From: Deltaproteobacteria bacterium
Lineage (GTDB): Bacteria > CG2-30-53-67
NCBI GenBank assembly: GCA_013151235.1
Contig: JAADIO010000040.1
Location: 1 to 50,004, forward strand
Direction of reading: 5' to 3'
DNA length: 50,004 nt
Position numbers and translations under genes: made by a program. Each line of letters starts with the position of its first letter. The first letter of the stretch is position 1. Below, in pieces: positions 11,476-31,452 of the stretch. A model generated the notes under the pieces. The model was given only the letters and a program-made list of their open reading frames with translations, was not told the DNA's origin and searched no databases.

Positions 11476-11492
11476 TTGGCATTTAACTTGCA
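11476..11492 (+). promoter_or_regulatory. Sigma-54 (-24/-12) promoter of the giant glycosyltransferase operon
   Basis: TTGGCATTTAACTTGCA matches YTGGCACG-N4-TTGCW with GG and GC separated by exactly 10 nt. Predicted start of transcription is about 11504, some 75 nt before the ribosome-binding site at 11569-11576. An in-frame TTG that could open the following frame lies inside this motif and so cannot be the true start. Confidence 0.8.
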
Positions 11493-11580
11493 GATGATTA
11501 CTATGATCATTTCTATCGAAATACCGGTCCTTGCGGAACATCCTGCCGCCGGGATGAATCTATCCAACAAGGAAGGTCCC

Positions 11581-14500
11581 ATGACAGAAAATTCGAACAC
11601 CTGCCAATACGTATCTCCCGCCTCAACGATATCACTTCACCAAAAAAAGAGGGAAGAACGCATACGACAGGGAGAAGCCCTGTTCCAAGAGGGAAAGATC
11701 GGTGAGGCAAAGGCACTTTTCGAAACGCTCCAGGTCGAATACCCGGACGATTCGGAGATCCTCAACAATCTTGGGGTCCTCGCCTGCGAAGAAGGAAAAT
11801 TAGAAGAGGGGATCGGGTATTTCGAAAAATGCATGGCCATCGCCCCCTCGAATCCCGATACGATCGAAAATATACGTTCTCTAAAAGAGGCTATCGCCTC
11901 TATGGAGCAACCTGAAATTGACGGGAAAAATACAACAGCGGCCGAGACAACGACGAAAGAGCCGATCCTGATCGTCATGGAAGAGGGGATCGGAAACATG
12001 ATCATGCTGACACCGGCGATTCGGGCCATAAAAAAAGTCCGGCCCGATCTTCCGATCCATATCCTCGGCCGGTACCCTGCCCTTGAAGTCATAGAAGGAT
12101 GGGACCTGGTTGACCGGATCCTGACGGAACCGGATGAAATTATTTATGAGACCGTATTCTACACAATCTGGTCACAAAAAAACCGGGAGCACCATGGAAA
12201 ATATCTTCATGCACATTGCAGGCAGGAAGGAACAATTGCCTACAATGATCCTACTCTCCATGAATCGGAATACCATATGGAGATCGCCCGTCATTTCGGC
12301 TACACCGGCCCCTTACCGGAACCTTTCTGTCCTGTTTCCGAGGTCGCATACCCCTTTCCTGAAGAAAAACCGGTGATCGGCCTGGCCGACACCTATCTTT
12401 CGAACGGTGCCTGGAACCGAAAAAGCTGGCCCCACTACCGACCCCTTGCCGCCGAACTGATCCGTCAGGGGTTCTCCGTTGCCCTTTTCGGCGGGAAGGA
12501 CGAAGCGGACCGTTTTCGCCCCGAGGAATGGCCCGAAGGGATCATCGACCTTCAGGGGAAGTACACCGTGGCAGAATCCGCCCAACTCATGAAAGCATGC
12601 AGCATAATTGTTGTCAACGACAGCGGCCCCGCCCATATGGCCGCCGCCGTCGGCGCCCGAACCGTTACCCTTTTCGGCGCCACACGGATCGACAAAAACA
12701 GACCGCTGGGGCCACATGTGAAAGTCATGACGGGAAACCTTACTTGTAGTCCCTGTCAGTATACCCCCGCATGGCAGAAATGCCACGACTGGAAGTGCAT
12801 GGAGTCCATTACTACCGAACAGATACTACATGTGATCAAAGAGACCGCCGCCCGGCCCGGACAGAAAAAAACGGCCGACATCCTCATCGTGGGCGTTACC
12901 GACCGCCCGGAATCGACGAATACCGCCATGCAAAAAGGATTTGAGACGCTCGGCTACAGCGTGGACACCTACAACTACCGGACGCGGGCCGCCGAACTCG
13001 GCTCCTTTGAAAGGATGAATCAGGACTTTCTCACCTTTTTGGAAGGCAAATCCTATGGCTTGATCCTTTTTTCCAAAATCAACGGCATGGCCCCCTCCTG
13101 CCTTACCGCCGCTCGGCGGCACGGCAGGACATGGTACTGGTTTATGGACGGGATTGATGCCGCCCGGGCCCTTGGTGCCGACCGCTACGCCGCCTGTACC
13201 GACTTCGCCAGCGCCACCTGCCGAGAAGTCACCCACTATTTTACTCCTGCCAATCCACGCTCCTTCCAAATCGTCGAGGGATTCGACCCGGAACTGCTGT
13301 CTCCGATGAAAGAAGAAAAGAAGTATGACGTCATTTTTATCGGCAACGCCACGGAAAAACGAATCCGCTCCATCGAAGCGATCCAAAAGATTGTCCCCGT
13401 CACTCTTTTCGGAAAGGGATGGCCCGGAAACTTGTCCGCGAACCCCCCAGTCTTCGGAAAAGATTTCCGCAAGATCATCAGCCAATCGAAAATCATTCTC
13501 AACCTGGTTCACTCCGACATTTTCTCCGACCGGGTGATTCATACACTCGCCTGCGGGGGATTTCTCCTCTCCGAATATTGCCCCGACCTGGAACAGCACT
13601 TCCGAAAAGGGAAAGACCTCGAATGGTATCGCGACATGGAGGAATTCCAGACCCTGATCTCCCATTACCTCCCCGATACGGCAGCGAGAAAAACCGTTGC
13701 CCAGGAAGGGTATGAGACGGTACGTGACGGTTATCCCTGGGAGCGGGTCTGCACACGGGTGGCCAATCTCGGCGGATTGCATCGGCAATCTTCCGGACAA
13801 GCACTACAGCCCCCCTCCCCTGCACCATCCGGTCGAACCAGCCACAAGGAAAAAGTCCTCCTCGTCTCCTGGCATGGCCTGGGCGACAACGTGATGCTGA
13901 CACCGGCCCTACGGAAATTCAAGGAGAGGAACCCGGAGACGGAGATCACCCTTCTGGGTCTCAAGCGGTTCGGCAAGACTCTCCGGGAACTCTTAAGCGG
14001 ACTCCCCTTTATCGACGAAATCCTCCCGATCCTCCCCGATGCATGGAACGACTTTACGGACTACGGCGGCGGAGTTCAGGCCGTCTGCGCCGAGGCCGAA
14101 TCCTACGCAAAGGAGAACGGATTCGACCGGATGATCCTGCTTCCCACGGAGCGAAAACCGGGATATCGCCTCCATAAGATCTTCCGTTTTGCCGAAGAGC
14201 TGGGAGTCGATTTCGAAAAATTAGAGGAATTGCAGACAATCCTTACCGTCGCAAAAGAAGCCCGAGAAAAAGCCGACTCTTTTCTGAGAGGTCTGCCGAA
14301 ACCGGTGGTGGTTCTTCACACCAAGGCGGGCAACAGCCCCAAGACCCTGAATCCGGATCAGGTCGAAGAGGTGCTCCGCCGCTTCCCCGACGGCACAATC
14401 CTCGAATTTGGAAGAAAGAGTAACGAACGGTCCGTCATGATCCCGGAAAATGATATGGAATTCTCCAAAGCCCTGATCCAACGAGCAGACCGGATCGTTG

Positions 14501-15570
14501 CCATTGACTCCGTTGTCATGCACATTGCAGGAGCTCTGTGCCGCCCCCTGACGGCAATCTTTACAACAACTCCCGTTCAGCAGGCTGTACCGATTACCAT
14601 GCCTGTTGAAATCGTGGGAGAAGTGAACGAACGAACCCGCATCGACCAATGGTCCCACCTTTTGGATGAAATTCTGCGAACCTATCCGTCAGGAGAAGGC
14701 AAATCTCCGGAGCAAAGGAATACAAATTCACCTCTCCGATTCTCACGGATCGTGATCACCGGCGCCGGCCACAGCGGCACCAACTGGATCACCGAAATTG
14801 TTCGTTCCTCCGGACGATACCAGTTTACCGAATACATGGAAGACCGGGAACTCTTTCGCCACAAGGAACTCCCCACGGGTTACGGGACACAACTTGCCAC
14901 GGAGAATCCAGGCTTTCACTGGAAAAATCTGAAGACACTTCTCGACCGTTACAAGGATTTGGCCGTAATTCTGATCACACGCCACCCCATCGACACCTGC
15001 CTTTCGAAAATTGTCCGGGGACAACTCAAGGGCGGGGATGGCCCGGTTGAAAATATATGGGATTACTCCTGGGATAGTACCCTGAAAGGATCCGTCAAAT
15101 CGATTGAAGGGATGTATGACATTCTCGTTCGTCTGCAACAGGAATACCCCGACCGGGTGCATCGATTGACCCTGGAAGATCTCATTACCCAGAGAGAGAC
15201 GGAAATAGACCGCATCTGCTCCTTCCTTCAGATCCTCAGGACAGAGGCCATGACAGAGGCCTATCGGAACATCCGGAACGTACATCAACAAAAACGTTGC
15301 GGAAAAGCCGTTGATGGCGGCCAAATAAATCTTTATCGTAATTTGCAGGAAGCCTTTGGCGGTTTCTTCCATGACAAGAAAGAACTGGTTGCCTTTCTCT
15401 GTAGAGAGTTACAACCCATTTCCGAGGCCCTTGGATACGAAGTAATAGATCCCTGCAAGACCGGCATCCGTCGAGACACCCGAACCTCGACATCCATTGT
15501 GCAGCCTCCGTCAGAGGTCCACAGGAGCTTGCCGTTCGAGGGCTCTACACCTTCGGCATTGCCTGTTTGA
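11581..15570 (+). CDS. Giant mosaic transferase: TPR - GT9 - CgeB-like GT - GT9 - sulfotransferase-like
   Basis: 1329 aa. Start 11581 is chosen for AAGGAAGG at 11569-11576 and lies downstream of the sigma-54 promoter. Modules: TPR repeats (about 24-105); GT9 heptosyltransferase-like domain (about 127-430: EEGIGNMIMLTPAIRAIKK and VNDSGPAHMAAAVGARTVTLFG); a CgeB-like glycosyltransferase (about 430-745, VIFIGNATEKRIRSIEAI and a NLVHSDIFSDRVIHTLACGG end); a second GT9-like domain (about 756-1036, SWHGLGDNVMLTPALRKFKER), shorter and lacking the SGPAH motif (DSVVMHIAGA instead); and a sulfotransferase-like domain (about 1052-1290) with a PAPS-type loop GAGHSGTNWI and ITRHPIDTCLSK. Followed by the next giant gene after 10 bp. 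Presumed cytoplasmic glycan synthase; substrate unknown. Confidence 0.85.
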   Translation: MTENSNTCQYVSPASTISLHQKKREERIRQGEALFQEGKIGEAKALFETLQVEYPDDSEILNNLGVLACEEGKLEEGIGYFEKCMAIAPSNPDTIENIRSLKEAIASMEQPEIDGKNTTAAETTTKEPILIVMEEGIGNMIMLTPAIRAIKKVRPDLPIHILGRYPALEVIEGWDLVDRILTEPDEIIYETVFYTIWSQKNREHHGKYLHAHCRQEGTIAYNDPTLHESEYHMEIARHFGYTGPLPEPFCPVSEVAYPFPEEKPVIGLADTYLSNGAWNRKSWPHYRPLAAELIRQGFSVALFGGKDEADRFRPEEWPEGIIDLQGKYTVAESAQLMKACSIIVVNDSGPAHMAAAVGARTVTLFGATRIDKNRPLGPHVKVMTGNLTCSPCQYTPAWQKCHDWKCMESITTEQILHVIKETAARPGQKKTADILIVGVTDRPESTNTAMQKGFETLGYSVDTYNYRTRAAELGSFERMNQDFLTFLEGKSYGLILFSKINGMAPSCLTAARRHGRTWYWFMDGIDAARALGADRYAACTDFASATCREVTHYFTPANPRSFQIVEGFDPELLSPMKEEKKYDVIFIGNATEKRIRSIEAIQKIVPVTLFGKGWPGNLSANPPVFGKDFRKIISQSKIILNLVHSDIFSDRVIHTLACGGFLLSEYCPDLEQHFRKGKDLEWYRDMEEFQTLISHYLPDTAARKTVAQEGYETVRDGYPWERVCTRVANLGGLHRQSSGQALQPPSPAPSGRTSHKEKVLLVSWHGLGDNVMLTPALRKFKERNPETEITLLGLKRFGKTLRELLSGLPFIDEILPILPDAWNDFTDYGGGVQAVCAEAESYAKENGFDRMILLPTERKPGYRLHKIFRFAEELGVDFEKLEELQTILTVAKEAREKADSFLRGLPKPVVVLHTKAGNSPKTLNPDQVEEVLRRFPDGTILEFGRKSNERSVMIPENDMEFSKALIQRADRIVAIDSVVMHIAGALCRPLTAIFTTTPVQQAVPITMPVEIVGEVNERTRIDQWSHLLDEILRTYPSGEGKSPEQRNTNSPLRFSRIVITGAGHSGTNWITEIVRSSGRYQFTEYMEDRELFRHKELPTGYGTQLATENPGFHWKNLKTLLDRYKDLAVILITRHPIDTCLSKIVRGQLKGGDGPVENIWDYSWDSTLKGSVKSIEGMYDILVRLQQEYPDRVHRLTLEDLITQRETEIDRICSFLQILRTEAMTEAYRNIRNVHQQKRCGKAVDGGQINLYRNLQEAFGGFFHDKKELVAFLCRELQPISEALGYEVIDPCKTGIRRDTRTSTSIVQPPSEVHRSLPFEGSTPSALPV

Positions 15571-15580
15571 GAAAACAAAG

Positions 15581-18500
15581 ATGAGTGCCATTATATTTTA
15601 TACTCACAGCACCCCCTTCCATCCGGGGACGATCCTCACCCGGGGACTGGGAGGATCGGAGAGCGCCCTGATTCACATGGCCCGGGAACTGGCCCGGATC
15701 GGCCACAGCATCCATGTCTTCTGCAACTGCGACGCGCCGGGGACCTACGACAAAGTGATCTATCAAAACATCTCGGAGCTCCCTGCCTTCTTTCAACTTT
15801 CCCGTCCCGACCTTTTCGTATCGCTTCGGATTCCTCAGGTCCTGGCCGAACCGATCCCGGCACAGCTCAAATGGCTCTGGGCCGAGGACAGCTTCGATCA
15901 GCCCCATATCCAGTGCCTCATGGACCCTTCGCTGGTGCGGAAGATCGACCGGGTCGTCACGGTCAGCCGCTGGCAGGCCGAAACCTACCGACGTCATTTC
16001 CGGATCAACGATGAAAAGTTTTACATCAGCCGGAACGGTTTTCACTCCCCCTTCTATGAAGGCCCCTGTACAGACGAACGTCCGCCACGACTGGTCTATT
16101 CAAGCACCCCTTTTCGAGGACTCGACGTCCTGCTGAATCTCTTCCCTGAAATCCGGAATGCGGTCCCCGATGCGGAACTTTATATTTACAGCAGTATGGC
16201 CGTCTACGGAGTCAATCGTGAAGAAGATGAAAAGGAGTATGGAGAACTCTACCGGAAGGCGGAGCAGCCCGGCGTCCGGCTGATCGGCACGGTTCCCCAG
16301 GATCGGTTGGCAAAGGAACTGATGCAATCGGCCCTCCTGGCCTACCCGAACCATTTTGCCGAGACCTCCTGCATCGCCGCCATCGAGGCACAGGCGGCGG
16401 GAGTGCCGGTCGTCACCACAGCACTGGGGGGACTCAACGAAACGGTCCGGCAGGGCGAAACGGGGATTCTCATCCCCGGAGACAGCCGGACGGAGAAATA
16501 CGGAAAACAATTCATCGGAGAAATCGTCTCTTTTCTTCAAGACCGTGAGAAATGGAGAACATTCAGTCAACGCGCCCGGAGGCGGGCCTTTTCCGAATAT
16601 CGATGGGAGGTGATTGCGAAGGAGTGGAGCCATGAATTAGACAGGGAACTGTCTGCACACAAAGCAAAGCAGGCGGGGATAGGAAATATCGGTGGTTCGA
16701 AAGACTCTATCTCCGCCTGCCGAAATGAAATTGCAAGGCATCCCGATCATCCCGAGCCCTATCACCGCCTCGGCCTCCTCTACCGGAAGGCGGGGGAACC
16801 GGAGAAGGCCCTCGCCGCCTTCCGGGAGGCAATTTCCCACTACGTTCTCTATGACGACGCCTACGAAAACTACCGGGCCACGGCGGAGGAACTCGGCATC
16901 ACACTGCAACGGGATAATCTGGATATCGTTTTTTATACCGTGGGGAACTTCACCCCCGCCGACCTGGGGGTCCGGGCCGTAGGCGGCAGTGAAACAGCCC
17001 TGATGTCCATGGCGCGGGAGCTTGCCCGTCTCGGAAGGGGGGTCATCGTCTACAACGGTACGCAGGAGGTCTCGGTCCATGAAGGAGTGGAATACCGGAA
17101 CCTTGCCGACTTCTTCCTTCTGAACCGATGGAACAGGATCCCTGTCTTCATCTCTTCCCGGGTCCCCATGCCGTTCCGGGCCGGGGTCAATGCCGAGCGG
17201 AAGATCTTCTGGGTCCATGATGACTGCCAGGCCGAATATATCCGGAAGGAGAATCTCGGAGACCTTCCAGCCGACGAAATCCTCACCGTCAGCCGCTGGC
17301 AGGCGGAGACCTATGCCGAGCACTTCCGGGTTCCCCGTCACCGGTTCACGATCTCCCGTAACGGGATCGACCTCTTCCTCTTTCCGACCGGAGAATATCC
17401 CCGTGACCGGAACCGGCTCCTCTATATCAGCCGCCCCGACCGGGGCCTTTCCATCCTGCTTGATCTCTTCCCGAAAATTCGGGAGCAGGCGCCGGAAGCG
17501 GAACTCCACATCTTCACCTATACCCAGGCGCAGGATCTCGAAAGTGACCCGGAGATGCAGCCGATCCTCCCGAAGCTGGATCAGCCCGGCGTCGTGCTGC
17601 GAGGCTGCGTTCCGAAGGAAGCTCTCTATAACGAACTCAAAAAGGCACGGCTTCTTCTCTACCCTTCGATCTGGCGAGAAACCTCCTGTATCGCGGTTTT
17701 AGAAGCCCAGGCCGCCGGACTCCCGATCGTCACAACCCCCCTGGCGGCCCTGCCGGAATCGGTGGCCGGAGGGGTCTTCGTCCCCGGCAACCCCAATTCC
17801 ACCTTTTACCGGGACCGGTTCGTTGAGGAGACCCTTCGACTGATGCGGGACGACACCTCATGGCGGGAACTCTCGGAACGGGGACGGGCCTTCATCAGAA
17901 GGCATCACACCTGGGCGAAGATCGCCTCCGAATGGGATACCTACCTGAGATGTTCGACAACCCGGCCCCTGCTTTCTCTCTGCATGATCGTGAAAAACGA
18001 AGAGGAGGTACTGGGAAGATGCCTGAAAAGCGTCGCCGAGGTCGTTGACGAGATCGTCATCGTCGATACGGGGTCGGAGGACAACACCTGCGACATCGCC
18101 GCCTCCTTCGGCGCCCGGATCATTCGCCATAACTGGAAAGATGACTTCAGCGAGGCCCGGAACCTCTCCCTCGACTATGCCCGGGGGAAATGGATCCTCG
18201 TCCTTGATGCCGACGAAATCATTGCACCCGGAGATCTTGAAAAGATTATAGAGACGATTCAAAACCCCGAGGTCTCCGCCTGTTCCATGATACAGAGATC
18301 CTACACCGACGATGCGACGCTCCTGCACTGGAAAAAGAACGACGGACGATACGACGAGAGCAGGAAATTTTCAGGCTATATTGAATCCGAATTGATCCGC
18401 CTCTTCCGTCGCCGTCCGGAAATTCGGTTTCGGGACCGTATCCACGAACTCGTCGAGCCCTCCATTGCGGAAGCCGGTCTTCCCGTAGAACGCCTGGCAA

Positions 18501-21500
18501 TTCCGATTCATCACTTCGGGAAGGTCCGGGACGATGACCGGGGAATCATCAAAGGAGCACTCTACCGTGAATTGGGAGAAATCAAGATGAAAGAAAGACC
18601 GGACGACCCCAGGGCCGCATTCGAACTGGCCGCACAGATGATCTCATTGAAAGAGTTCGCCAAAGCGATTCCCCTCCTGGAAGAACTGGTCCGACTCAAA
18701 CCGGACTCCGCCAAGCCTTATCTCCTTCTCGGAACCGCACTGATGGAACTCGGCCGAAACAAAGAAGCACAAAAGAGGTGCGAAGAAGCCTGCCGGATAG
18801 AGCCGGAAAGCGCTGACTGCACCTATAACCTCGGCGTCGTCCATCAAAGACTGGAGCAGCACACAAAGGCCATCGATCTGTTCCGAAAGGCCATTCACCT
18901 CCAATCCGGTCACTTCCTCGCCTACTGGAGTCTCGGCTTCTCCGAACTGATCACCGGGGATTCCGGGAATGCGGAAGGACACCTCAAAGAATCAATATCT
19001 ATCAATCCCCGTTTCGCCTCATCAAGAAACGACTTGGCCGTTCTCTATGCAAGAACGGGACGGATGGAACTTGCATGCAGAGAGTTGGAAACCATTCTCG
19101 ACTTTGAGCCGGGCAATGAACAGGCCAGGCAAAATCTGGAGATCGCCCGCGCCGGGCTCCATGAATCCACCGGTCCAGCGATACGGCAGAACGGGAAGAT
19201 CTCTCTTGCCGTGATCGTTAAGAACGGAGAACAGGGCCTCCCCCGCTGTCTCGACTCGGTCAAGGATTTCCTGGATGAGATCGTCATTGTCGATACCGGG
19301 TCGGAAGACAAAACCGTTGAAATCGCACGCCGCTACACCGACCGGGTCTACTTACACCCCTGGTCGGACGATTTCAGCGAAGCACGAAATGTATCCATCA
19401 ATCATGCATCGTCGGAGTGGATTCTGGTCCTTGATGCCGATGAATGGTTCCGCCCGGAAGAGGCCGGAAAACTCCGGGAAATCGTTTCCCGTGCGGAAAG
19501 CACAATCACACACTTCTATCTTGACCGGTGGAACCTTGGGGCCGATGGTCAGACCGGTACCGTCATGAGCCTCCCCCGTCTATTTCGGAACCATCTCGCC
19601 GGCCGATTCGAGGGAAGGATCCACGAGCAGCTCGTGATCGGGGGGAAGGGGATCCATTGCGGCCTGCACTTCCTGCACGACGGCTACGGACGGGGGGATG
19701 ACCGGGAACGGGAGAAATATCTTCGCAACTGCCGGATGATCGAACGGGAGATCAACGCCGACCCGGAGAATCCTTTTCATTACCATAACCTCTGTCTCTC
19801 CCTGAAGGCCCTCGGAGAAGAAGAAAAAGCGATTGACGCCGGGCATCGGGCCGTTGATCTGGCACGCGCACAGGGGGTACGGCCCCGTTACCTGGTGCAG
19901 ACCTGCTATGCAGCGGCAACGCACCACTATCTGAAAGGGGAGATGGAAGCCGCCCGGACCTTCGCCGAATCCGCCCGGACCTTCGCCCCCGACCATCCCG
20001 ACGGATGGTACCTCCTAACCCTGATCGCCGCCGACCAGGGTCCATGGGACGAGTGTATCCGGACGGGAAAACAATTCCTGACCGTTGTGGAAAAACGAAA
20101 GGACGGGGCGGTCATAGAACCGGTTCCCGTTTACACCCAGGAACGGGCCCATAACGTCATGGCCATGATCGGCGGGGCCTTCTACCGCCTGGGTAATCCT
20201 GCGGAAGGGGATGCCTGGCTGATCCGGGCGATCGAAAGCGGCCGGAAAGATCTTGATTTTATCCGTTCCATCGAGATCTTTTATGACGCGATCGGAGAAA
20301 CGGAGAAGGCCGGCGTCATCCGGGACGGAATCACCCCCCCGAAAAACGAAGGCAAGAACAGACAAAAAAGCCCGAACCTCTCCCTCTGCATGATCGTGAA
20401 AAACGAAGAAGAGATGCTTGCCGGATGCCTGGAGAGCGTGCAGGGACTGGTCGATGAGATCATCATCATTGACACGGGATCCACGGACAAGACCGTTGAG
20501 ATCGCACGCCGCTATACCGAAAAGATCTTCTCCCATCCCTGGGCCGATGATTTCAGCAAGGCCCGAAACGTATCCATCCATCATGCCACGGGGGAATGGA
20601 TCCTCGTTCTCGATGCCGATGAAAAGATCTCCGCCAAAGACCATGCGAAAATTCGGGAGGCGCTGAACACCCCCGGCGCCATGGCCTTTGATCTGATTCA
20701 ACGAAACTACACCCATGACCGGGATGCCTTCGGGTGGCGGCAGAACCGTGGCGCGTATGAAGAAGAAGGAGCCTTTCCCGGTCATTTCGATGTTTCCCTC
20801 ACCCGCCTGTTCCGGAGAAATCCGAAAATTCGTTTCGTCCATCGGGTCCACGAACGGGTGGAAGAGTCTCTCGATGCAGCGAGCATCCCCCATCCCCTTC
20901 TTTCCGTCCCGATCCATCACTTCGGTAAGACCCGAGGAAATGAATTTCTCCACCGGAAACTGGAATACTACCTACATCTGGCCCGGGAAAAACAGAAAGA
21001 AGATCCGGCGGACAGCCGGGCCGGTTATGAGATTGGCGGAACCCTTGTCGAACTCGGACGAACGGAGGAAGCCCTGCCATATCTGGAAAGAGCCTGCCGA
21101 ATCGACCCGGACTTCCGGGAGGCACGGATTCTTCTCGGGATCACCCTGTACCAGTTGGAATCCTATGAAAGAGCCGAACAGGTTTTTGCATCTCTCCCTC
21201 CCGGGCAGGAGGATCTTCCCCTTCTGCGGCTCCGGGGTATTGTCTCTCTGCGGCTGCAAAAGGGGGACGCTGCAGAACGGGCCTTTCGTTCCGCGCTGCG
21301 TCACGACCCGAAGAACGAAAGCTGCCGGATCGGACTGGCACAGGCAGAAGTCCTTCAGGGAAAGCTGGAGGACGCCGTTACAACCCTGGAGATTGCCCTC
21401 CGGGACCATCCGAACTCTCCCCAAGCCCTGAACGATCGGGGCTGTCTCGCCCTTGTGAAAGGAAACCGGCAGGAAGCGGAACGGTTCTTCCGGAATGCCC

Positions 21501-22897
21501 TCAACGCCGACCCCGGCTACCGGGACGCTGCGGTCAACCTTGATCGGTGCGCCGCCCCTGCCGGAACGGAAGCGGCCGAGATACCGAAGCTCTCCGTCTG
21601 CATGATGGTGAAAAATGAAGAAGAGAAGCTCCCTCGTTGTCTCGATTCGATCCGGGGATATGTGGATGAACTGGTCATCGTCGACACCGGCTCCACGGAC
21701 AGAACGGTGGAGATCGCCCGACGCTACACGGACAAGATCTACTTCCATCCCTGGGAGGGAGATTTTTCGAAGGCACGAAACCAAGCCCTTCAATATGCCG
21801 CCGGGGACTGGATCCTTCAGCTCGATGCCGATGAAGTGGTCGATGCCGCCGATGCTCCACGTCTGAAAACCGTAATTCAGGAGGTTCCGGAAGAGATCAC
21901 GCACCAGGATGTGGAAATTCTCAACTACGACAGCGAAGGGATCGTCAACGCGACCATTCATTATCCCCGCCTCTTCCGGAACGGCATGGGCTTTCACTAC
22001 GAAGGAATCGTCCACAACCAGATCCGGATTGAGGGCCGGAGAATCTCCTCAGGAATCCGGATCCACCACTACGGCTATGCCCTTTCTCCCGGGAAGATGG
22101 AGGCAAAGCGGGACCGGACGATCGAGTTGCTGCAAAAGCAGATCGCCGCCGACCCCGAAAATCCCTGGCCCCACCATAATCTTTGTCTCTCCTTTTCCAT
22201 GGCGAAGATGAATGCGAAAGCGGTCGAGGCCGGAGAAGAGGCGTATCGGCTGGCCCGACAGCAAGGAATCTTTCCGCCCTGGCTCTATTATGGACGCTAC
22301 GTGGTCGCCGCCACACTCTGTGCCGATGGGGACTACGACCGGGCCATCGCGGTTGCACGGGAGTGCATGGAACAAAACCCGGAGCATCTCGACTCCTGTT
22401 ATTTGATCATGCTCGCAGCCTACCAGATCGACGATTTTCCAACCGTCCGGGAGATGGGAGACCGCTATCTCAGGCTTCTGGAAAAATATTCCAGAGAGGG
22501 AATCCCCGCCGACGTTCCTCTTGGAACCCTCGAGTTCAAACCCAGGGCTCTAAAGATGCTCGGTCATGCCTCTTTTGCCCTGGGAGAAAAAGAAAGAGCC
22601 GCCCGGCTGTTTCAGGACTACCTTCAAGAAGATATGAAGAACCCCATCCGTTATCGGGAGATCGGGCTCTTCTACCACGGACAGGGCGAAACGGAAACCG
22701 CCCGGGGCCACTATGAGAAGCATCTCACCCTCGACCCGGAAGACACGTATATTCTGAAAGCCGTTGCCGATTGTCTCACCCGGGAAGGAGATGGCAACAA
22801 CGCTTCAGCATACTACCAAAAGGCACTGGACCTTGACCCGTCGGACAAGGAGGCTGAATACCTTCTGGAACAGATCCGGACACCGGCAGGCATGTAA
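15581..22897 (+). CDS. Giant mosaic glycosyltransferase: 2 GT4 + 4 GT2 modules with TPR spacers
   Basis: 2438 aa, start 15581 immediately after the previous stop (weak ribosome-binding site, likely coupled). Modules: GT4 (1-365, ending in EAQAAGVPVVTTALGGLNE); TPR (about 373-440); a second, similar GT4 (441-795, VGGSETALMSMARELARLG, EAQAAGLPIVTT); then four GT2 domains starting near residues 797, 1206, 1600 and 2004. Each GT2 has a VKNxE start, a VDTGS(E/T)D nucleotide loop, the segment DFSxARN and a LDADE metal motif, and each is followed by TPR-rich stretches. The GT2 type resembles the TPR-linked group that includes the peptide S-glycosyltransferase SunS. The GT2 copies are closely similar and probably arose by internal duplication. 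Acceptor and sugars are unknown; flagellin is the nearest candidate. Confidence 0.88.
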   Translation: MSAIIFYTHSTPFHPGTILTRGLGGSESALIHMARELARIGHSIHVFCNCDAPGTYDKVIYQNISELPAFFQLSRPDLFVSLRIPQVLAEPIPAQLKWLWAEDSFDQPHIQCLMDPSLVRKIDRVVTVSRWQAETYRRHFRINDEKFYISRNGFHSPFYEGPCTDERPPRLVYSSTPFRGLDVLLNLFPEIRNAVPDAELYIYSSMAVYGVNREEDEKEYGELYRKAEQPGVRLIGTVPQDRLAKELMQSALLAYPNHFAETSCIAAIEAQAAGVPVVTTALGGLNETVRQGETGILIPGDSRTEKYGKQFIGEIVSFLQDREKWRTFSQRARRRAFSEYRWEVIAKEWSHELDRELSAHKAKQAGIGNIGGSKDSISACRNEIARHPDHPEPYHRLGLLYRKAGEPEKALAAFREAISHYVLYDDAYENYRATAEELGITLQRDNLDIVFYTVGNFTPADLGVRAVGGSETALMSMARELARLGRGVIVYNGTQEVSVHEGVEYRNLADFFLLNRWNRIPVFISSRVPMPFRAGVNAERKIFWVHDDCQAEYIRKENLGDLPADEILTVSRWQAETYAEHFRVPRHRFTISRNGIDLFLFPTGEYPRDRNRLLYISRPDRGLSILLDLFPKIREQAPEAELHIFTYTQAQDLESDPEMQPILPKLDQPGVVLRGCVPKEALYNELKKARLLLYPSIWRETSCIAVLEAQAAGLPIVTTPLAALPESVAGGVFVPGNPNSTFYRDRFVEETLRLMRDDTSWRELSERGRAFIRRHHTWAKIASEWDTYLRCSTTRPLLSLCMIVKNEEEVLGRCLKSVAEVVDEIVIVDTGSEDNTCDIAASFGARIIRHNWKDDFSEARNLSLDYARGKWILVLDADEIIAPGDLEKIIETIQNPEVSACSMIQRSYTDDATLLHWKKNDGRYDESRKFSGYIESELIRLFRRRPEIRFRDRIHELVEPSIAEAGLPVERLAIPIHHFGKVRDDDRGIIKGALYRELGEIKMKERPDDPRAAFELAAQMISLKEFAKAIPLLEELVRLKPDSAKPYLLLGTALMELGRNKEAQKRCEEACRIEPESADCTYNLGVVHQRLEQHTKAIDLFRKAIHLQSGHFLAYWSLGFSELITGDSGNAEGHLKESISINPRFASSRNDLAVLYARTGRMELACRELETILDFEPGNEQARQNLEIARAGLHESTGPAIRQNGKISLAVIVKNGEQGLPRCLDSVKDFLDEIVIVDTGSEDKTVEIARRYTDRVYLHPWSDDFSEARNVSINHASSEWILVLDADEWFRPEEAGKLREIVSRAESTITHFYLDRWNLGADGQTGTVMSLPRLFRNHLAGRFEGRIHEQLVIGGKGIHCGLHFLHDGYGRGDDREREKYLRNCRMIEREINADPENPFHYHNLCLSLKALGEEEKAIDAGHRAVDLARAQGVRPRYLVQTCYAAATHHYLKGEMEAARTFAESARTFAPDHPDGWYLLTLIAADQGPWDECIRTGKQFLTVVEKRKDGAVIEPVPVYTQERAHNVMAMIGGAFYRLGNPAEGDAWLIRAIESGRKDLDFIRSIEIFYDAIGETEKAGVIRDGITPPKNEGKNRQKSPNLSLCMIVKNEEEMLAGCLESVQGLVDEIIIIDTGSTDKTVEIARRYTEKIFSHPWADDFSKARNVSIHHATGEWILVLDADEKISAKDHAKIREALNTPGAMAFDLIQRNYTHDRDAFGWRQNRGAYEEEGAFPGHFDVSLTRLFRRNPKIRFVHRVHERVEESLDAASIPHPLLSVPIHHFGKTRGNEFLHRKLEYYLHLAREKQKEDPADSRAGYEIGGTLVELGRTEEALPYLERACRIDPDFREARILLGITLYQLESYERAEQVFASLPPGQEDLPLLRLRGIVSLRLQKGDAAERAFRSALRHDPKNESCRIGLAQAEVLQGKLEDAVTTLEIALRDHPNSPQALNDRGCLALVKGNRQEAERFFRNALNADPGYRDAAVNLDRCAAPAGTEAAEIPKLSVCMMVKNEEEKLPRCLDSIRGYVDELVIVDTGSTDRTVEIARRYTDKIYFHPWEGDFSKARNQALQYAAGDWILQLDADEVVDAADAPRLKTVIQEVPEEITHQDVEILNYDSEGIVNATIHYPRLFRNGMGFHYEGIVHNQIRIEGRRISSGIRIHHYGYALSPGKMEAKRDRTIELLQKQIAADPENPWPHHNLCLSFSMAKMNAKAVEAGEEAYRLARQQGIFPPWLYYGRYVVAATLCADGDYDRAIAVARECMEQNPEHLDSCYLIMLAAYQIDDFPTVREMGDRYLRLLEKYSREGIPADVPLGTLEFKPRALKMLGHASFALGEKERAARLFQDYLQEDMKNPIRYREIGLFYHGQGETETARGHYEKHLTLDPEDTYILKAVADCLTREGDGNNASAYYQKALDLDPSDKEAEYLLEQIRTPAGM

Positions 22898-22992
22898 AAC
22901 AATAAACCGATCCCTTCCCCTTCAGACAACAGGGAATAAGGGAGTCCCGGCCTGAATCGTTTTCCTTCATGGATAAAAAATATAAGGAAACC

Positions 22993-25869
22993 ATGCGTTC
23001 TCCGTTGCTCAGCACCTGCATGATCGTCCGAGATGAAGAAGATTGCCTCGAACGGTGCCTTGCATCCATCCGACCGTTTACCGATGAACTGATCCTCGTC
23101 GACACCGGTTCAACCGATGGAACCGTTACCATTGCCGAAAGATACGCGGACCGGCTGATTCACCACCCGTGGGAAGATGATTTTTCCGCCGCACGGAACC
23201 GCTCGATCGAAAGGGCGGCGGGTGACTGGATCTTTTACCTCGACGCCGACGAAGAACTTTTTTTCAACGACGGACCGAAACTCCGAAAAATGCTCTCGGA
23301 AATCCGGAAGAATGTGGATCATCTTCTCCTGAGTATCCGCAACCTGGACGGTGCCGGCGGAATTCTTTCCGAATTTCCGGCCCTGCGGATTTTTCGGAAC
23401 GGCCGCGGGATCCATTTCTCCGGTATCGTCCATAACCAGGTGATCTGCAACGGAGAAGGAAGAACATTCCCGGTTACACTCCTCCACTACGGGTATGCAC
23501 TCTCCCCGAAGAAAATGGAGGCAAAGTTTCAACGAACCCTTTCCCTCACAAAAAAACAGATTCGGCAGGAACCGTCAAGCCCTCTTCCGCTCCACAACCT
23601 CACACTCTCTCTGCTGAATCACGGAGACCATGCCGAGGCGCTGGAAAGCGGCCTGCAGGGACTTCGACTCTTTGAACAGCTCTCCGCTCCCTACCCGCCC
23701 CTATTTTCGAACCTGATTTACCTGACCGCACGGGCCGCCCTCGCCGACGGCAGGTACGACTTGGCTGCATCTGTTTGCATGGAGGGATTGAAGAGCCGTC
23801 CGGATCATCTCGACCTCTTTTGGGTTCTGGCCATGTCTTCTTATTACGAGAAGCAATACCGGGAAACCCTGGAGTGGAGCAAAAAATTCCGGCAAGCCGT
23901 CAGGGCCTACCGGGAACACCGTTGCAGCGAGCTCCCGGTCAACACCATCGGCCGGATCGCACCGCTTCTGATCACGGCCGGATATGCCGCAGCGCACCTG
24001 GGCTGCGAACCGGAGGCACAGCGTTTCATGGAAGAAGGGCTTGCCGAAGGGAAATGGGATCCGGAACTCGGTATCAAGATTCTCAACTTCTGCAACATAC
24101 ATCAAAAAAGAGAACTCGGGGAGACGATCCTGCAGCAACTTCTACACCGGCATCCCGACCACGCGGAACTGCATCGATTCCGTGCCGTATTCTCCTTGTC
24201 TGACGAAACGGTCAGCACTCCCTCGATTGCATCCTCCCCCTCGCCTCCTCAAAAAGTCCTGATTATCAACCTCTGCGAGTTGGGAGACCTGATCCAGGCG
24301 ACACCGGTGATTGAAGAGATTACCTTCCGGGGAGGGGCCGTTACACTCCTTGTCCGGGAGGACCTCACGGAAACCGCCCTGCATCTGCCCCAAGTATCAC
24401 GAATCGTCACATTCGATACAAGTACCTGGATCGGAGGAGGCAGGACGGCGTTTGTTCCCGAAAATGAGATCCGTGACCAGATCGGCGGACTTCTGGATGA
24501 GCCTTTTGATCTGATCCTCAATATGACGTACACCCGGCTCGGGGCACGGATCGCGCGGATGAGCCGAGGAAAGCAAAAAAAAGGGATGGTTCAGGCGGAA
24601 GGAAACCGGATCCGGATCCGGGGGGCTTCGATCCGCTATCTCAGACAGATGCTCGCTCATCGGAAGTTAAACACCCTTCATGTCGTCGACCTTCACCGGC
24701 TGATCCTCCGGCACCCCCTGCAAAGAAGAGAACTCTCCTTTCAGGTCTCCGAAGAAGAGTGGACGGAGGCCATGGAGATTCTCCAGGCTGCCGGCATCAC
24801 ACCGGAGACACCGCTCATCGGGATTCAGATCGGTGCAAGGGAGGTCCGGAAACAATGGCCGGCGGAATCCTTCACCCGGCTCGCAGAAATGATCTCGGCA
24901 GAGCAGAAGGAAAAAGTCCTCCTCTTCGGTGTCTCTTCGGAGACCCCTCTCGCAGAGAGGATCAAGGCAATCGCACCAGGCCGGATCGTCAACCTCGCCG
25001 GAAAGACGCGGATCGGCCATCTCGCAGCTCTCCTCTCCCGATGCCGTCTCCTCATCAGCAACGATACCGGTACCTCCCATCTGGCAGCGGCCGTCGGAAC
25101 CAGGGTCCTCTCTCTGCATATGGGGCATGTCTGGTTCCGGGAGACTTCTCCCTACGGCGAAGGACATGCGGCCATGCAGGCAGACTGTCCGTGCGCTCCC
25201 TGTAGCTTGAGAACACCTTGTTCCGACATGCGCTGCCGGAGAATCCTGACACCCTCGGCCGTCCACCATACCCTCCGGTACATACTCAACAGGACACCGA
25301 TACCGGACGATGATACGTTTCGGAATATCAAGGTGCATGAATCGTATTTCGGCGACGGCAATTTCCTGAGCCACCGTCCATTGCTCCACCGTTCGGAAAC
25401 ACTTGAAGACCGTTTTCGAGAGATCTACGACCAATTCTGGAAAAAAAGGTTGAATGGATTGCCGCAAGGTACAAAGGTATTTCCGGCCTCTTCCGGAATC
25501 CCCGGAAGGGAGAAAATGGACCGCTTGATTGCGGATCTGACAATGCTCAAAGGGTGGATGGAAGAGGCACGGAGCCTGGCCTCAACTCTCTTCATCCAAT
25601 CCCGTGAAGGAAAAGGGATTGTCCAGGGGGCACGCCGCTTCAAGGAACTTCATACGGCAATTCTTGAACAGGGCCGCCGAACCCCGCTCCTTCGGCCATT
25701 GACGGAATTCTACAATACCGGTCAGCAGCAAATCGAGGCAAGGGACTTCCCTTCGGTCATGCAAGCCTTTGCCACAGTGCTGGATAGTGGATGTAACCTT
25801 TTGAAAGAACTGGAAGAAATATTCTCGGTGTACCGATTTGCAGATCCCGTAAGCAAATCACCCGAATGA
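22993..25869 (+). CDS. Mosaic glycosyltransferase: GT2 - TPR - GT9 with unknown C-terminal domain
   Basis: 958 aa. A GT2 domain (about 1-230, LLSTCMIVRDEEDC, VDTGSTDGTVTIAERY, FYLDADEE) resembles the GT2 modules of the previous gene; TPR-like helices follow (to about 415); then a GT9 domain (about 420-775, KVLIINLCELGDLIQATPVIEE, IGIQIGAREVRKQWP and SNDTGTSHLAAAVGTRVLSLHMG), and a C-terminal helical region (about 800-958) I do not recognise. Start 22993 is preferred because AAGGA lies at 22984-22988; an upstream in-frame ATG at 22969 lacks one. It follows the previous gene by 95 bp and precedes flagellin, so it probably ends the operon. A CCTGAAA/TTTCAGG hairpin (25901-25923) without a T-run lies after it. 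Confidence 0.87.
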   Translation: MRSPLLSTCMIVRDEEDCLERCLASIRPFTDELILVDTGSTDGTVTIAERYADRLIHHPWEDDFSAARNRSIERAAGDWIFYLDADEELFFNDGPKLRKMLSEIRKNVDHLLLSIRNLDGAGGILSEFPALRIFRNGRGIHFSGIVHNQVICNGEGRTFPVTLLHYGYALSPKKMEAKFQRTLSLTKKQIRQEPSSPLPLHNLTLSLLNHGDHAEALESGLQGLRLFEQLSAPYPPLFSNLIYLTARAALADGRYDLAASVCMEGLKSRPDHLDLFWVLAMSSYYEKQYRETLEWSKKFRQAVRAYREHRCSELPVNTIGRIAPLLITAGYAAAHLGCEPEAQRFMEEGLAEGKWDPELGIKILNFCNIHQKRELGETILQQLLHRHPDHAELHRFRAVFSLSDETVSTPSIASSPSPPQKVLIINLCELGDLIQATPVIEEITFRGGAVTLLVREDLTETALHLPQVSRIVTFDTSTWIGGGRTAFVPENEIRDQIGGLLDEPFDLILNMTYTRLGARIARMSRGKQKKGMVQAEGNRIRIRGASIRYLRQMLAHRKLNTLHVVDLHRLILRHPLQRRELSFQVSEEEWTEAMEILQAAGITPETPLIGIQIGAREVRKQWPAESFTRLAEMISAEQKEKVLLFGVSSETPLAERIKAIAPGRIVNLAGKTRIGHLAALLSRCRLLISNDTGTSHLAAAVGTRVLSLHMGHVWFRETSPYGEGHAAMQADCPCAPCSLRTPCSDMRCRRILTPSAVHHTLRYILNRTPIPDDDTFRNIKVHESYFGDGNFLSHRPLLHRSETLEDRFREIYDQFWKKRLNGLPQGTKVFPASSGIPGREKMDRLIADLTMLKGWMEEARSLASTLFIQSREGKGIVQGARRFKELHTAILEQGRRTPLLRPLTEFYNTGQQQIEARDFPSVMQAFATVLDSGCNLLKELEEIFSVYRFADPVSKSPE

Positions 25870-26184: not shown

Positions 26185-27315
26185 ATGGGACTGAGAATTC
26201 AGAATAATATTGCAGCATTAAATGCACACCGCCACTTGACGATTACGGACAATGCTCTGTCCAAGTCGCTGGAACGTCTCTCCTCCGGTTATCGGATCAA
26301 CCGGGCCGCAGACGACGCCGCAGGCCTCGCCGTGTCGGAAGGACTGCGTGCCGACATCAAGAGTTACCAGGTAGCCTCCCGGAATACGTCGGAGGCGAAT
26401 TCCCTCCTGCAGGTCGCTGAAGGGGCGCTGGACCAGATCGGGAACATGCTGACCCGCCTGAAGGAACTGGCCACACAGGCGGCTTCGGACAACACGAGTT
26501 CCTCCAACCGGGACAAGCTGAATTCCGAAGCCACCCAGTTGAAGAACGAAATCGACCGGATCGCGGATTCCACCAATTATGCCGGCACCAAGCTGATCGA
26601 CGGCTCCTTTAACGGCGCCTCCACCCTGAGTACGAATGATGCCGGTTCCATCGCCGCCATCGCCAATGTTTACGATATGTCCGTTTCAGACGCCTCAGCG
26701 GGAACTTACACCATCACGGCTTCCGGCTCCAACCTGACCCTCACCAGTGGAGGCATCTCCCAGACCGTGACAATAACCACGGCCGGAACAGCGAATTTTT
26801 CGACCTTCGACATCTCCTTCAAAACCACGTCGGCGGCAAGTACGACGGCAATCGCCGCCGCTTTCACCGCCATGGGCACCATGACCATCTCTGCCGGATC
26901 CGGATCGACCTTCCAGGTCGGCGCCGGCAACACTTCCCAGGATAGGATCACATTCTCCATCGGTGACGCCAATACGGCAGTTCTGGGAAGTGCCTCGTCA
27001 AGTTACCTGACCGATGTCGACCTGACGACGGGAAGTGACTCCCAGGTGGCCATCAACATCATTGATCAGGCGATTGATGACGTTGCCGGAATCCGCGGCG
27101 ACATCGGTGCCGTCCAGAACCGGCTCGGCTACGCCTCAGCCAACCTGGCAACCACGATCGAGAACGTCACGGCGGCCGATTCGGTCATCCGGGATGCCGA
27201 CATGGCATCAGAGATGACGACCTTTACCAAGAACCAGATCCTGCTTCAGGCCGGGACCTCAATGCTGGCCCAGGCCAACGCCGCACCGCAGGTCATCCTC
27301 TCGCTGCTGAAATAA
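26185..27315 (+). CDS. fliC: Flagellin
   Basis: 376-aa filament subunit. The conserved N-terminal D0/D1 region (1-140) is MGLRIQNNIAALNAHRHL and LSSGYRINRAADDAAGLAVSEGLRA; the C-terminal D1/D0 region (about 285-376) has VQNRLGYASANLATTIENVTAADSVIRDADMA and ends LAQANAAPQVILSLLK. The middle about 145 residues are rich in Ser, Thr, Ala and Gly, suitable for O-glycosylation. Exported by the flagellar type III route without a cleaved signal. Driven by a sigma-28 promoter with a strong AAGGAGG site. Only one flagellin gene is seen here. The giant transferase operon lies immediately upstream. Confidence 0.97.
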   Translation: MGLRIQNNIAALNAHRHLTITDNALSKSLERLSSGYRINRAADDAAGLAVSEGLRADIKSYQVASRNTSEANSLLQVAEGALDQIGNMLTRLKELATQAASDNTSSSNRDKLNSEATQLKNEIDRIADSTNYAGTKLIDGSFNGASTLSTNDAGSIAAIANVYDMSVSDASAGTYTITASGSNLTLTSGGISQTVTITTAGTANFSTFDISFKTTSAASTTAIAAAFTAMGTMTISAGSGSTFQVGAGNTSQDRITFSIGDANTAVLGSASSSYLTDVDLTTGSDSQVAINIIDQAIDDVAGIRGDIGAVQNRLGYASANLATTIENVTAADSVIRDADMASEMTTFTKNQILLQAGTSMLAQANAAPQVILSLLK

Positions 27316-27392: not shown

Positions 27393-27806
27393 ATGAACCT
27401 GATTGAACTCTCATCAGCGGTCATGGGATCTCCGCCGGAAAAGAGTACAACCGGAAGGACCGCCGATCGCCCGGCACCCCGGACAGCTTCGACTCAAAAC
27501 ATAATGGAGATTCCCTCCATAACACAGTCAGAGGTACAAAAGAAGGATTCAGAACAACCGGCAACAAAGGCTCTGACCGCTGCACAGATACAGAAAATAG
27601 AGGAAACCGCAAAGGACATCCAGAAGTTCCTGGATGCCAACGGCCGGGAATTAAACTTCTACGTCAACCATAAAAACGGTCAGGTGGTCATCGAAGTCCA
27701 CCGGAAGTCGGACGGAAAGCTGATCCGGAAAATCCCGCCGGAGGATCTTCTGAAACCGCAGAATGGTCCGAGCATGTCGGGACTTCTGCTGGAAGAAGAC
27801 GTATAG
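27393..27806 (+). CDS. flaG: FlaG family flagellar protein
   Basis: 137 aa. The C-terminal half matches the FlaG family: IEETAKDIQKFLDANGRELNFYVNHKNGQVVIEVHRKSDGKLIRKIPPEDLLK. The N-terminal half is a low-complexity linker. FlaG proteins are linked to filament length control in other bacteria. A GGGAGAAAG ribosome-binding region lies just before the ATG. It sits in the usual place between fliC and fliD. Confidence 0.93.
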   Translation: MNLIELSSAVMGSPPEKSTTGRTADRPAPRTASTQNIMEIPSITQSEVQKKDSEQPATKALTAAQIQKIEETAKDIQKFLDANGRELNFYVNHKNGQVVIEVHRKSDGKLIRKIPPEDLLKPQNGPSMSGLLLEEDV

Positions 27807-27960: not shown

Positions 27961-30900
27961 ATGGTCAGCACAAGTTCCATCAGCGGACTCTCTTCCGGAT
28001 TTGACTGGCAAAGCATGGTCGACAAAATCCGCGAGGTTGAAGAACGCCCGATCACATTGCTCCAGAATCATGTCCAGGAGGATCAGAACAAGCTCACGGC
28101 CTGGCAGGATGTCAACACCCGCCTGCTGAGTCTCCAGACCTCGGCCTCTGCGATCAATACGGCCTCCGCCTTCGACCTCTTCAGCGCCGCGACATCCTCT
28201 TCTTCCACCACCAGTGCGGATAAATTATTGACCGCCTCTGTCGGAACCAATGCAGCGGAAGGCTCTTACTCCATTCAGCTCACACAACTCGCACAGGCAC
28301 AGAAGCTCTCCTCCGGAAGTTTCGCCGACAAAACCTCGGCCCTCGGCTACACCGGCGACATTCTTATCAACGATCGAGTCGTCGCCATTGAGGCCTCCGA
28401 TAACCTGCAGACCATTGCTGACAAGATCAATGCCGTTAATTCGGGAAGCAACGCATCAAGCGTTACCGCCACGATCCTGCAGAACGGGACAAGTGACTAC
28501 CGCCTGATTCTCACCAGCGACACTGAAGGATCGGACGGCATCGGACTTTTAGAGGCCAACACCTCGAATATTCTCCAGAACCTGGGACTGATATCATCAT
28601 CGGTCAGCCTTAAGAACGCCACCAGCGACGGTGCAAAATCGGATGCCTTCACCAACAGCAGCACCGCCGTCGGCACCCTTCTAAGCCTTACGTCGGCCCA
28701 GACGAGTACCACCGTGACAATTGCCGGCCAGAACGTCGCCATCGACCTCTCCACGGAATCGCTGACGACCATCGCCTCGCATATCAACGCCTTGACCGGC
28801 GTTACGGCTTCCGTAGTCAGCACCACCACAGACAACGTCACCACTTACCAACTCGACATCAGCGGAACCACCTCCTTCACAGACAACAACAATGTCCTCC
28901 AGACTCTTGGAATCCTTGAAGGAACCCAGACCTCTACCACAGAGGTTCATACCGGTTCCGTGGCCAATACCGACGGCGATGCCTCTACCCTGATGACCGC
29001 ATCCACCCTGATGACCAACATCTGGACCGGCGGCACAAGCGCAGGCGTACAGGCAGGTGACACCATCACGATCAACGGAACCCAGGGAAACGGCACGGTG
29101 ATCGGCCCGATCACCTATACCGTACAGAATGGAGATACCGTACAGGATCTTCTCGATCGGATCAACAATACCACAAACGGTTTTGGTTCCGGCACCCGAA
29201 CCGCCACGACAAGTGTGTCCAACGGGAAGATCATCATCACGGACGGAACTGCCGGAGACAGTCAGCTTTCTCTCACCCTCATCGCCAACAACGAAGGGGG
29301 AGGCACCCTCGATTTCGGCACCATCTCCGCAACCACGGAAGGACGGGACATGGAACTCGTCGCAGGGCAGGACGCCAAGCTGACGGTGGACGGGATTTCC
29401 ATCACAAACTCCACCAATACAGTAAGCGACGTCATCCAGGGAGTAACACTCAACCTGCTCAGTGTCGAATCGGGAACCACGATCAATCTCTCCGTGGCCC
29501 GGGACCTGTCAACGATCCAGTCAAACATTGAGACTTTCGTCTCCGATTACAACGATATCAGCTCCTTCATCGGCGACCAGTTCAAATACGACAAGGACAA
29601 AGAAAAGACGGGAGGCGTCCTCTTCGGCGATCAGACCCTTGCATCGATTCAGTCGGACCTGCGCACAATCATGGTCAATACCGTCTGGGGGACCGATGCC
29701 GACCTGAACACCCTCGGTCTGGCGGGTATCAACTTCGATAATGAGGGAAAGCTCACCATAGATTCTTCGAAACTTTCCGGATACCTGAAGACAAATTTCG
29801 AAGATATCCGGAACCTCTTCGCCGCCAACGGGGCCTCGACAAACAGCAACATCAAATACATCGGGAACACCAAGGCGACGCAGAAGGGAGACTATACCGT
29901 CAACATCACCCAGGCGGCAACCAAGGGAAGCGTCACGGGAAGCGTCGATCTCTCCGGCGGGATCGGAGCGGACAACACCTTCACCCTGACCGAGGGAGGC
30001 CGGATCGCCACCATCGCCGTTACCGCCGGAGATAATATCGACACGATCGTCAACGCCATCAACTCCGAAGCGGCCGCCGAGTACACCGAAGTACGAAAAA
30101 GCACCGCCACAAACACTGCATCCTCGGCAGCGATTGTGAACAGTACGGCCTGGAGCGCCATCGACGGGGTGACGGCCGCGGACGGCGACGTGATCACCTA
30201 CAGCGGCACCACACGGACCGGGGCCTCCGTCAGCGGTTCCTACACCATCGACCTGGCGAACGGCAACGTGGGAGACCTCCTCTCGGCCATCGAGGACAGC
30301 TACGGGAAAAACATCTATGCCACCCTCGACACGGACGGACGGATCGTGCTTACGGACAAGACGACCGGCGACAGTGAACTCACCTTTTCCATTAACACAT
30401 CCGCCGTCACCGGCCTCTCCTTCGGAACCTTCGACAACTCCGGGTTGAACACGGAGGGGCGCTACGCCCTTGACATCACGGCATCGAAGGATGCCGGCAA
30501 CCACCTTGTACTCACGGACAATAATTACGGGAGCGACAAAAGCTTCACTGTCTCGCAGACCAATGCCTCCTCGACGGGGATCACCGACGGGACCTATGCC
30601 GGTCTGGACGTAGCCGGAACGATCAACGGCGAGGCGGCCACCGGAAGCGGCCAGGTACTAACCGGTGATTCAGGCGACGCCAATGTGGACGGTCTCTCCA
30701 TTCTGTACTCGGGAACCGCTACGGGCAGCGTGGGATCGATGAAGCTGACCCTCGGTGTCGCGGAACAGATGAAGACCCAGCTTTACTACATCACCGACAG
30801 CGAGGACGGCTATCTCAGCTTCAAGACCAATTCGATCAGCGATGAAATTGATAACACCAACGACAACATCGACATCAAGGAAGCCCGAATCGATAAACGG

Positions 30901-31020: not shown

Positions 31021-31452
31021 ATGGCCCGGTATCCACAAAACAGCTACCTGGAGACGGAGGTCCTGACGGCGGACCCCGGAAAGCTGATTCTGCTCCTCTT
31101 TGACGGGGCAATCCATTTCCTCAAACAGGGAAAGATCTATCTTTTAGAAGAAAAACACCGGGAAAAGGGCCAGGGGTTGATGCGTGCCCATGCCGTGGTA
31201 AGCGAACTGCTCCACTGCCTGAACAGGGAAAAAGGAGGTGATATAGCGATCCGGCTCCAGGCAATCTACGTCTATATCCTCCAGCGGATCACCGACGCCG
31301 ACCTGAAAAAGGAAACAGGGGCGATTGACGAATGTGTCGACCTCTTGTCGGAATTGCGGGAAGCCTGGTACGCAATTACCCATAAAAGTCCCGAGGACTC
31401 CATTCGGGAACTCACCCCGGAGACAAGAACGGAATTCTCTGCAACCATTTGA
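31021..31452 (+). CDS. fliS: Flagellin export chaperone FliS
   Basis: 143-aa helical chaperone that binds the flagellin C-terminus and blocks early polymerisation. The family pattern is NSYLETEVLTADPGKLILLLFDGAIHFLKQG near the start. It follows fliD by 18 bp with AGGGGAGG upstream, and is 3 bp from the next gene, so translation is likely coupled. Confidence 0.95.
   Translation: MARYPQNSYLETEVLTADPGKLILLLFDGAIHFLKQGKIYLLEEKHREKGQGLMRAHAVVSELLHCLNREKGGDIAIRLQAIYVYILQRITDADLKKETGAIDECVDLLSELREAWYAITHKSPEDSIRELTPETRTEFSATI

Follow-up and report, generated by a model that had tools for sequence, protein, structure and literature searches.

We identified, at the end of a large glycosyltransferase (GT) polypeptide encoded next to the flagellin gene, a domain that is best read as a PAPS-dependent sulfotransferase module at the C-terminus of a multi-unit GT, capping the glycan of the flagellar filament. 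We hold this reading with slightly better than even confidence. The polypeptide is encoded in the window, a stretch of 50,004 nucleotides of a deltaproteobacterial contig, which was compared with one other genome of the genus (G001) and with a genome from another genus of the same family (G005); the window's own genome is G000. A sulfotransferase acting on the flagellar glycan had been proposed in an earlier, sequence-only reading of the window. The predicted identity and fold of the domain, its flagellar setting and the presence of PAPS genes agree with that proposal; the sulfation step and the flagellin target are what we infer from them.

Architecture and predicted fold of the fused polypeptide

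The ORF encodes a product of 1,329-1,364 aa, depending on the start codon. Judged from the sequence, the true start is likely ATG 11581, which is preceded by AAGGAAGG. The boundaries of both GT9 units and of the CgeB-type unit were set by inspection, and the Glyco_trans_1_2 unit (PF13524) is called CgeB-type here.

11476..15570, + strand: fused TPR / GT9 / CgeB-type GT / GT9 / sulfotransferase polypeptide, a single uninterrupted ORF
11650..11868, + strand: TPR region (~aa 59-131 of the TTG-started reading; Pfam TPR_2, E 9e-7, aa 94-126; TPR_16, aa 64-127)
11959..12840, + strand: first GT9 (heptosyltransferase-like) unit (Pfam Glyco_transf_9, best stretch aa 313-429, whole-protein E 6.5e-35)
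12868..13800, + strand: CgeB-type GT unit (Glyco_trans_1_2, Pfam PF13524, aa 633-760, E 8.1e-25)
13846..14709, + strand: second GT9 unit (Glyco_transf_9, two stretches in the polypeptide)
14737..15480, + strand: sulfotransferase domain (PF13469 and PF00685 above cut-off; fold from AF2 model)
14761..14787, + strand: PAPS (5'-phosphosulfate) loop GAGHSGTNW, in frame, His replacing Lys/Arg
14980..15006, + strand: 3'-phosphate-binding motif RHPIDTCLS, in frame, R and S both kept

The one frame, the Pfam matches and the fit of the coordinates bear out the earlier description of a sulfotransferase-like module joined to glycosyltransferases at 14737-15480, and its placement after the second GT9 agrees with the Pfam matches ahead of it, Glyco_transf_9 in two stretches and Glyco_trans_1_2 in one. 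The domain had also been described as the end of an otherwise GT polypeptide, which is correct for its C-terminal place but overlooks the TPR region at the N-terminus. A Ser/Thr/Pro/Arg-rich tail of 37 residues (window 15457-15567) follows LGYEVIDPC, beyond the Pfam matches.

Scanned alone as the 277-residue C-terminal end, the domain matched the Pfam models Sulfotransfer_3 (PF13469; E 2.5e-10, 41.4 bits, cut-off 27) and Sulfotransfer_1 (PF00685; E 3.6e-8, 33.5 bits, cut-off 22), both of which also matched the full polypeptide at aa 1091-1257. As profile scores, both are far above chance. NCBIfam gave no match for the domain alone, and a PHROGs 'DNA helicase' match (E 3.8e-4) was dropped as weak. 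A PDB search with the single domain sequence retrieved no chain below E 0.08; a profile built from the domain and three remote relatives (A1) retrieved CurM at the top (E 9.5e-11) and also TPST1 and SULTs, with the remote relatives supplying much of the signal. AF2 returned an unusable model from the sequence without an alignment (pLDDT 38.5) and a model with pLDDT 67.2 and pTM 0.70 when five remote viral sulfotransferases, obtained from 3/3 loci and 2/9 loci of two viral searches, were added to the alignment. Foldseek searches with this model had a best E of 1.4e-7, and the best 50 of 1,320 rows (E <= 10) were all sulfotransferases. VIA structural alignment ranked tyrosylprotein sulfotransferases (TPSTs) at the top (Z 14.8-15.3), with SULT, 3-OST and PKS-sulfotransferase structures closely behind. 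TPST1/TPST2 gave the best solved-structure match (Z 15.3, 205 residues, rmsd 3.3, 15% identity), yet they differ from the window domain in target class, and TPST1 keeps the loop Arg and the KDP Lys. Structure prediction, part of the check proposed with the sequence-only reading, yielded a sulfotransferase fold that was partly alignment-guided; the model is not independent of the sulfotransferase assumption because the alignment rows are themselves sulfotransferases, whereas the Pfam matches are independent. By profile and predicted fold, the domain belongs to the sulfotransferase fold family.

Close homologs of the domain were found neither in genome_contigs or viral_contigs (patterns and tblastn) nor in plasmids or phages (tblastn), and searches of 98 genomes (E <= 1e-3) and 8 genomes (E <= 1) retrieved the domain alone. 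Relaxing the threshold to E <= 0.5 in 386 genomes produced weak matches in 43 other genomes; 24 of the 29 new weak-match loci were inspected and eight were sulfotransferase-like (L075, L076, L078, L084, L092, L093, L098 and L099), the rest not. In viral searches, no close homolog of L075/L076 turned up, nor did a match to either of two loop/motif patterns. That the domain has no close relative in these collections weighs against its activity.

Active-site residues and genes for a plausible PAPS supply

We aligned the window domain with 12 comparator rows to examine its active-site residues. The R and S of the motif R.......S (RHPIDTCLS) are present in the window domain and in all 12 comparators. 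The loop GAGHSGTNWI, previously assigned to the PAPS-loop type, is present and in frame but carries His before SGT (HSGT), where 12/12 comparators have K or R. Asn occupies the column of the K(D/T)P lysine, which is Lys in seven of the 12 comparators and gapped in one row. The C-terminal aromatic-basic pair reads YR in the window and WK in five comparator rows, the column being aromatic in 10/12. Spacing between loop and motif is 73 residues in the window versus 85-134 in the 12 comparators. The column of the TPST catalytic Glu is a gap in the window; by eye, the Glu of FTEYMED lies near, after the loop helix. TPST requires the loop Arg, a Glu and the lysine. Judged from the sequence, the domain seems to have retained 3'-phosphate binding and to handle phosphosulfate differently.

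These substitutions give weight to the first of the two main rivals, in which the sulfotransferase fold is kept but the domain is catalytically dead or weak and serves as a nucleotide-binding, glycan-binding or structural module. The changes of the loop Lys/Arg to His and of the frequent lysine to Asn, the compact middle and the lack of an aligned catalytic Glu are all as expected of such a relic. So is the rarity of the loop: scans for GxGH(S/T)GTNW gave 12 matches in genome_contigs and four in viral_contigs, none sulfotransferase-like beyond the motif, in collections that may omit records near the window. Against it stand the 3'-phosphate-binding R and S, the YR pair, the intact frame and the PAPS genes of the genome, and we regard a dead or weak domain as unlikely, though the most serious of the competing explanations. 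The domain is a real but unusual sulfotransferase, with its activity the point in doubt because two usually basic positions have changed (loop His; Asn). On these residues, activity appears likely enough to bet on.

The genome encodes enzymes that could supply the sulfate donor. A bifunctional Sat-CysC (C26, L065:11685-13412; NF004040, 825 bits vs cut-off 669) adjoins CysQ (TIGR01331, 305.6 vs cut-off 228.8), and a small sulfotransferase is encoded two genes away, in one glycan cluster that also includes UDP-glucose dehydrogenase-, phosphomannomutase-, WbaP- and GDP-mannose-type genes (some of these names were given by inspection). The Sat half reads HTSKPMH where two solved Sats read QTRNPMH. 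This alteration is common to 4/4 Sat-CysC proteins of the family (G000, G001, G002 and G004); G006 and G007, from another family, have TRNPLH. A second, canonical Sat (C55, L111:8272-10832) carries the intact FQTRNPMHRSH, so APS may rather come from this enzyme. The canonical Sat adjoins a QmoC-like FeS protein (by inspection), which suggests dissimilatory sulfur metabolism. We found no PF01507 match, the family of PAPS reductase, in the genome (99.25% complete), and controls matched 14/14; PAPS therefore seems not to feed assimilatory reduction. Based on the genes present, and with their activity presumed, a PAPS supply for the domain is plausible.

Within the phylum, APS kinase was found in six of the eight genomes searched, with no match in G003 and G005. 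Across these genomes, the presence of PAPS genes does not simply go with that of sulfotransferases: G002 and G004 encode an APS kinase yet gave neither a PF13469 nor a flagellin match, and PF13469 places occur in G003 (three) and G005 (two), which gave no APS kinase match. The lack of an APS kinase match in G005 fits the methyltransferases at the C-terminus of its GT ortholog (see below); the pattern in these four genomes otherwise does not fit. We rejected G003 as a flagellin comparator, as its PF00669 match sits within a set of flagellar genes and resembles FlgL rather than FliC.

The flagellin gene row and its relatives

Downstream of the fused ORF, the GT row leads directly into fliC-flaG-fliD-fliS; GGDEF and HDOD genes lie upstream, on the opposite strand.

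15581..22897, + strand: giant GT/TPR polypeptide, 10 nt past the stop of the fused ORF (two group-1/4 GT stretches, four GT2 stretches, TPRs)
22969..25869, + strand: GT2 + GT9 polypeptide (weak TPR matches too)
26185..27315, + strand: flagellin FliC (Pfam Flagellin_N, E 2.2e-38; Flagellin_C, E 6.5e-27)
27393..27806, + strand: FlaG (PF03646, E 8.6e-14)
27961..31002, + strand: FliD, 1,013 aa (PF02465, PF07195)
31021..31452, + strand: FliS (PF02561, E 1e-32)

The giant polypeptide (~2,440 aa) is encoded with 252-nt repeats that are 70-74% alike to the reference copy, pointing to tandem expansion. Its counterpart in G001 (L014/L015, G001:C108, 18375-25139) is in two frames, either real or an assembly break. 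The window FliD, in which FliD_C matches over two stretches, seems long; FliD of G001 also has 1,013 aa and is 83% identical.

The GT genes share a gene row with fliC and are syntenic with G005, whose order is that of the window: GGDEF, HDOD, GT ortholog, a gene like the window GT2 ORFs, fliC and flaG. The G005 ortholog (L016:8419-13857) is 56.1% identical over aa 32-1082 (1,051 columns), and at its C-terminus a pair of methyltransferase stretches, followed by another region (beta-propeller-like by inspection), takes the place of the sulfotransferase. The homology stops at about window base 14721, in the linker ahead of the sulfotransferase, and this points to a C-terminal domain swap, sulfotransferase versus methyltransferases. 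By this sequence comparison, the C-terminus of the polypeptide behaves as an exchangeable decorating module. In G001, a separate sulfotransferase of 322 aa (PF13469, E 2.3e-22; loop GMHRSGTS) is encoded in the gene row leading to fliC. The genes on either side of it look GT-like by inspection, run on its strand and have overlapping frames; BLAST did not retrieve it as a relative of the window domain. Hence, in both genomes of the genus examined, the flagellin gene row includes a sulfotransferase, and the two are of different kinds.

We also estimated how often the two families meet. The own genome has PF13469 at eight places, the window's and seven others, and random placement would put one of them within 15 kb of fliC with a chance of ~9%, which tempers the argument from gene position. 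A survey of 241 genomes found PF13469 in 58 (E <= 1e-6) and flagellin in 90 (E <= 1e-20), with 30 genomes carrying both among the matches listed. Flagellin places were given for 22 of these 30 among the matches listed, and only G000 and G001 paired the two within 15 kb. The restriction of this pairing to G000 and G001 argues weakly for a genus trait, in a survey where many genomes are fragmented drafts; linkage of flagellin and sulfotransferase as a general trait was discarded.

The second main rival accepts an active sulfotransferase and assigns it to a different glycan of the cell surface (LPS core, O-antigen or exopolysaccharide), with its proximity to fliC being just convenient. GT9 is the heptosyltransferase family, and the PAPS genes sit with a sulfotransferase in the exopolysaccharide-like cluster elsewhere in the genome, where gene names are partly by inspection. 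However, in G000, G001 and G005, three genomes from the family, the GT row continues into fliC and flaG, and all NCBIfam heptosyltransferase equivalogs scored below their cut-offs. We consider such an acceptor improbable and rank it behind an inactive relic or binding module. Direct sulfation of tyrosines in flagellin or another protein would follow the example of TPST or of RaxST, the bacterial tyrosylprotein-type sulfotransferase, and the best fold matches are indeed tyrosylprotein sulfotransferases; it is nonetheless highly improbable, considering the SULT, 3-OST and PKS-sulfotransferase matches close behind, the low tyrosine content of FliC (only 7 Tyr in 376 aa) and the fusion of the domain to sugar transferases. 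Least credible is a sequencing or assembly artefact uniting two genes, as might be suspected of a fusion known from a single genome, on a draft contig, and from no second genome searched, for the open frame is unbroken across the junction, the base composition of the GT part and the domain (GC 54.2% vs 51.1%; GC3 62.6% vs 58.1%) argues against it, and the G005 homology stops in the linker, as expected of a domain swap.

No second genome carrying the same GT9-sulfotransferase fusion was found in the 98-, 8- and 386-genome searches. Among the matches listed, six sulfotransferase places fall in frames longer than 1,000 aa, the window's included. Of the five others, the two that were scanned proved to be GT fusions: G054 (L125:2310-6302) joins a sulfotransferase to three GT2 in 1,330 aa, and G222 (L124:3-5975), whose sulfotransferase match comes from the 241-genome PF13469 survey, joins a sulfotransferase, methyltransferase, GT2 and TPR in a frame of 1,991 aa that is open at the contig start. 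The remaining three look polyketide- or peptide-synthase-like (first residues, by inspection). Thus, sulfotransferase-GT fusions are rare but not unique. The G054 and G222 fusions share with the window the joining of a sulfotransferase to glycosyltransferases, but in them the sulfotransferase sits N-terminally, or nearly so, in the frame as read, and the GT units are GT2 rather than GT9.

Proposed sulfation of the filament glycan

In the PAPS-dependent capping of the filament glycan that we favor, the canonical Sat, and perhaps also the Sat half of Sat-CysC, would make APS, CysC would convert it to PAPS and CysQ would remove PAP, assuming that the genes encode the expected activities. The GT9, CgeB-type and GT9 units would, as their families suggest, build an oligosaccharide. 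With its predicted fold, the C-terminal domain could bind PAPS via the HSGT loop and the R and S of RHPIDTCLS and move the sulfate to a hydroxyl of that glycan, which, from the position of the genes, would end on FliC. The sequence evidence thus suggests a sulfated filament glycan in this bacterium.

Compared with other sulfotransferases of PF13469 and PF00685, the window domain scores above cut-off with both models and has the loop, the 3'-phosphate motif and the predicted fold, but differs in its loop His, its compact middle and its fusion behind three GT units. The PKS sulfotransferase domains of CurM (4gbm) and olefin synthase (4gox) are also modules within multi-domain bacterial enzymes; unlike the window domain, they belong to polyketide pathways, not glycans. 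Phrase searches of an open-access paper library found no paper on sulfated bacterial flagellin, and broader searches found none by title among the papers listed. In haloarchaea, sulfated glycans have been recorded on archaellins (PMC11980604). There, Halobacterium salinarum VNG1056C and VNG1057C are described as sulfating the N-linked tetrasaccharide of glycoproteins, archaellins included (PMC11980604). That account parallels our proposal in placing a sulfated glycan on a prokaryotic swimming filament, but concerns an archaeal N-glycan and separate enzymes, not bacterial flagellin (PMC11980604).

More tentatively, and with less than even confidence, we propose a sulfated bacterial filament glycan produced by an assembly-line GT. 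Its last domain would be an exchangeable cap writer, with one genus using a sulfotransferase and a second genus methyltransferases; the sulfotransferase would work with a PAPS loop of the His type, and, in a genome where no PAPS reductase was found, the PAPS supply would serve only sulfation. If true, the sulfotransferase built into the GT, the different sulfotransferase of the sister genome and the methyltransferase swap would turn the charge of the filament into a trait that can evolve and be tested.
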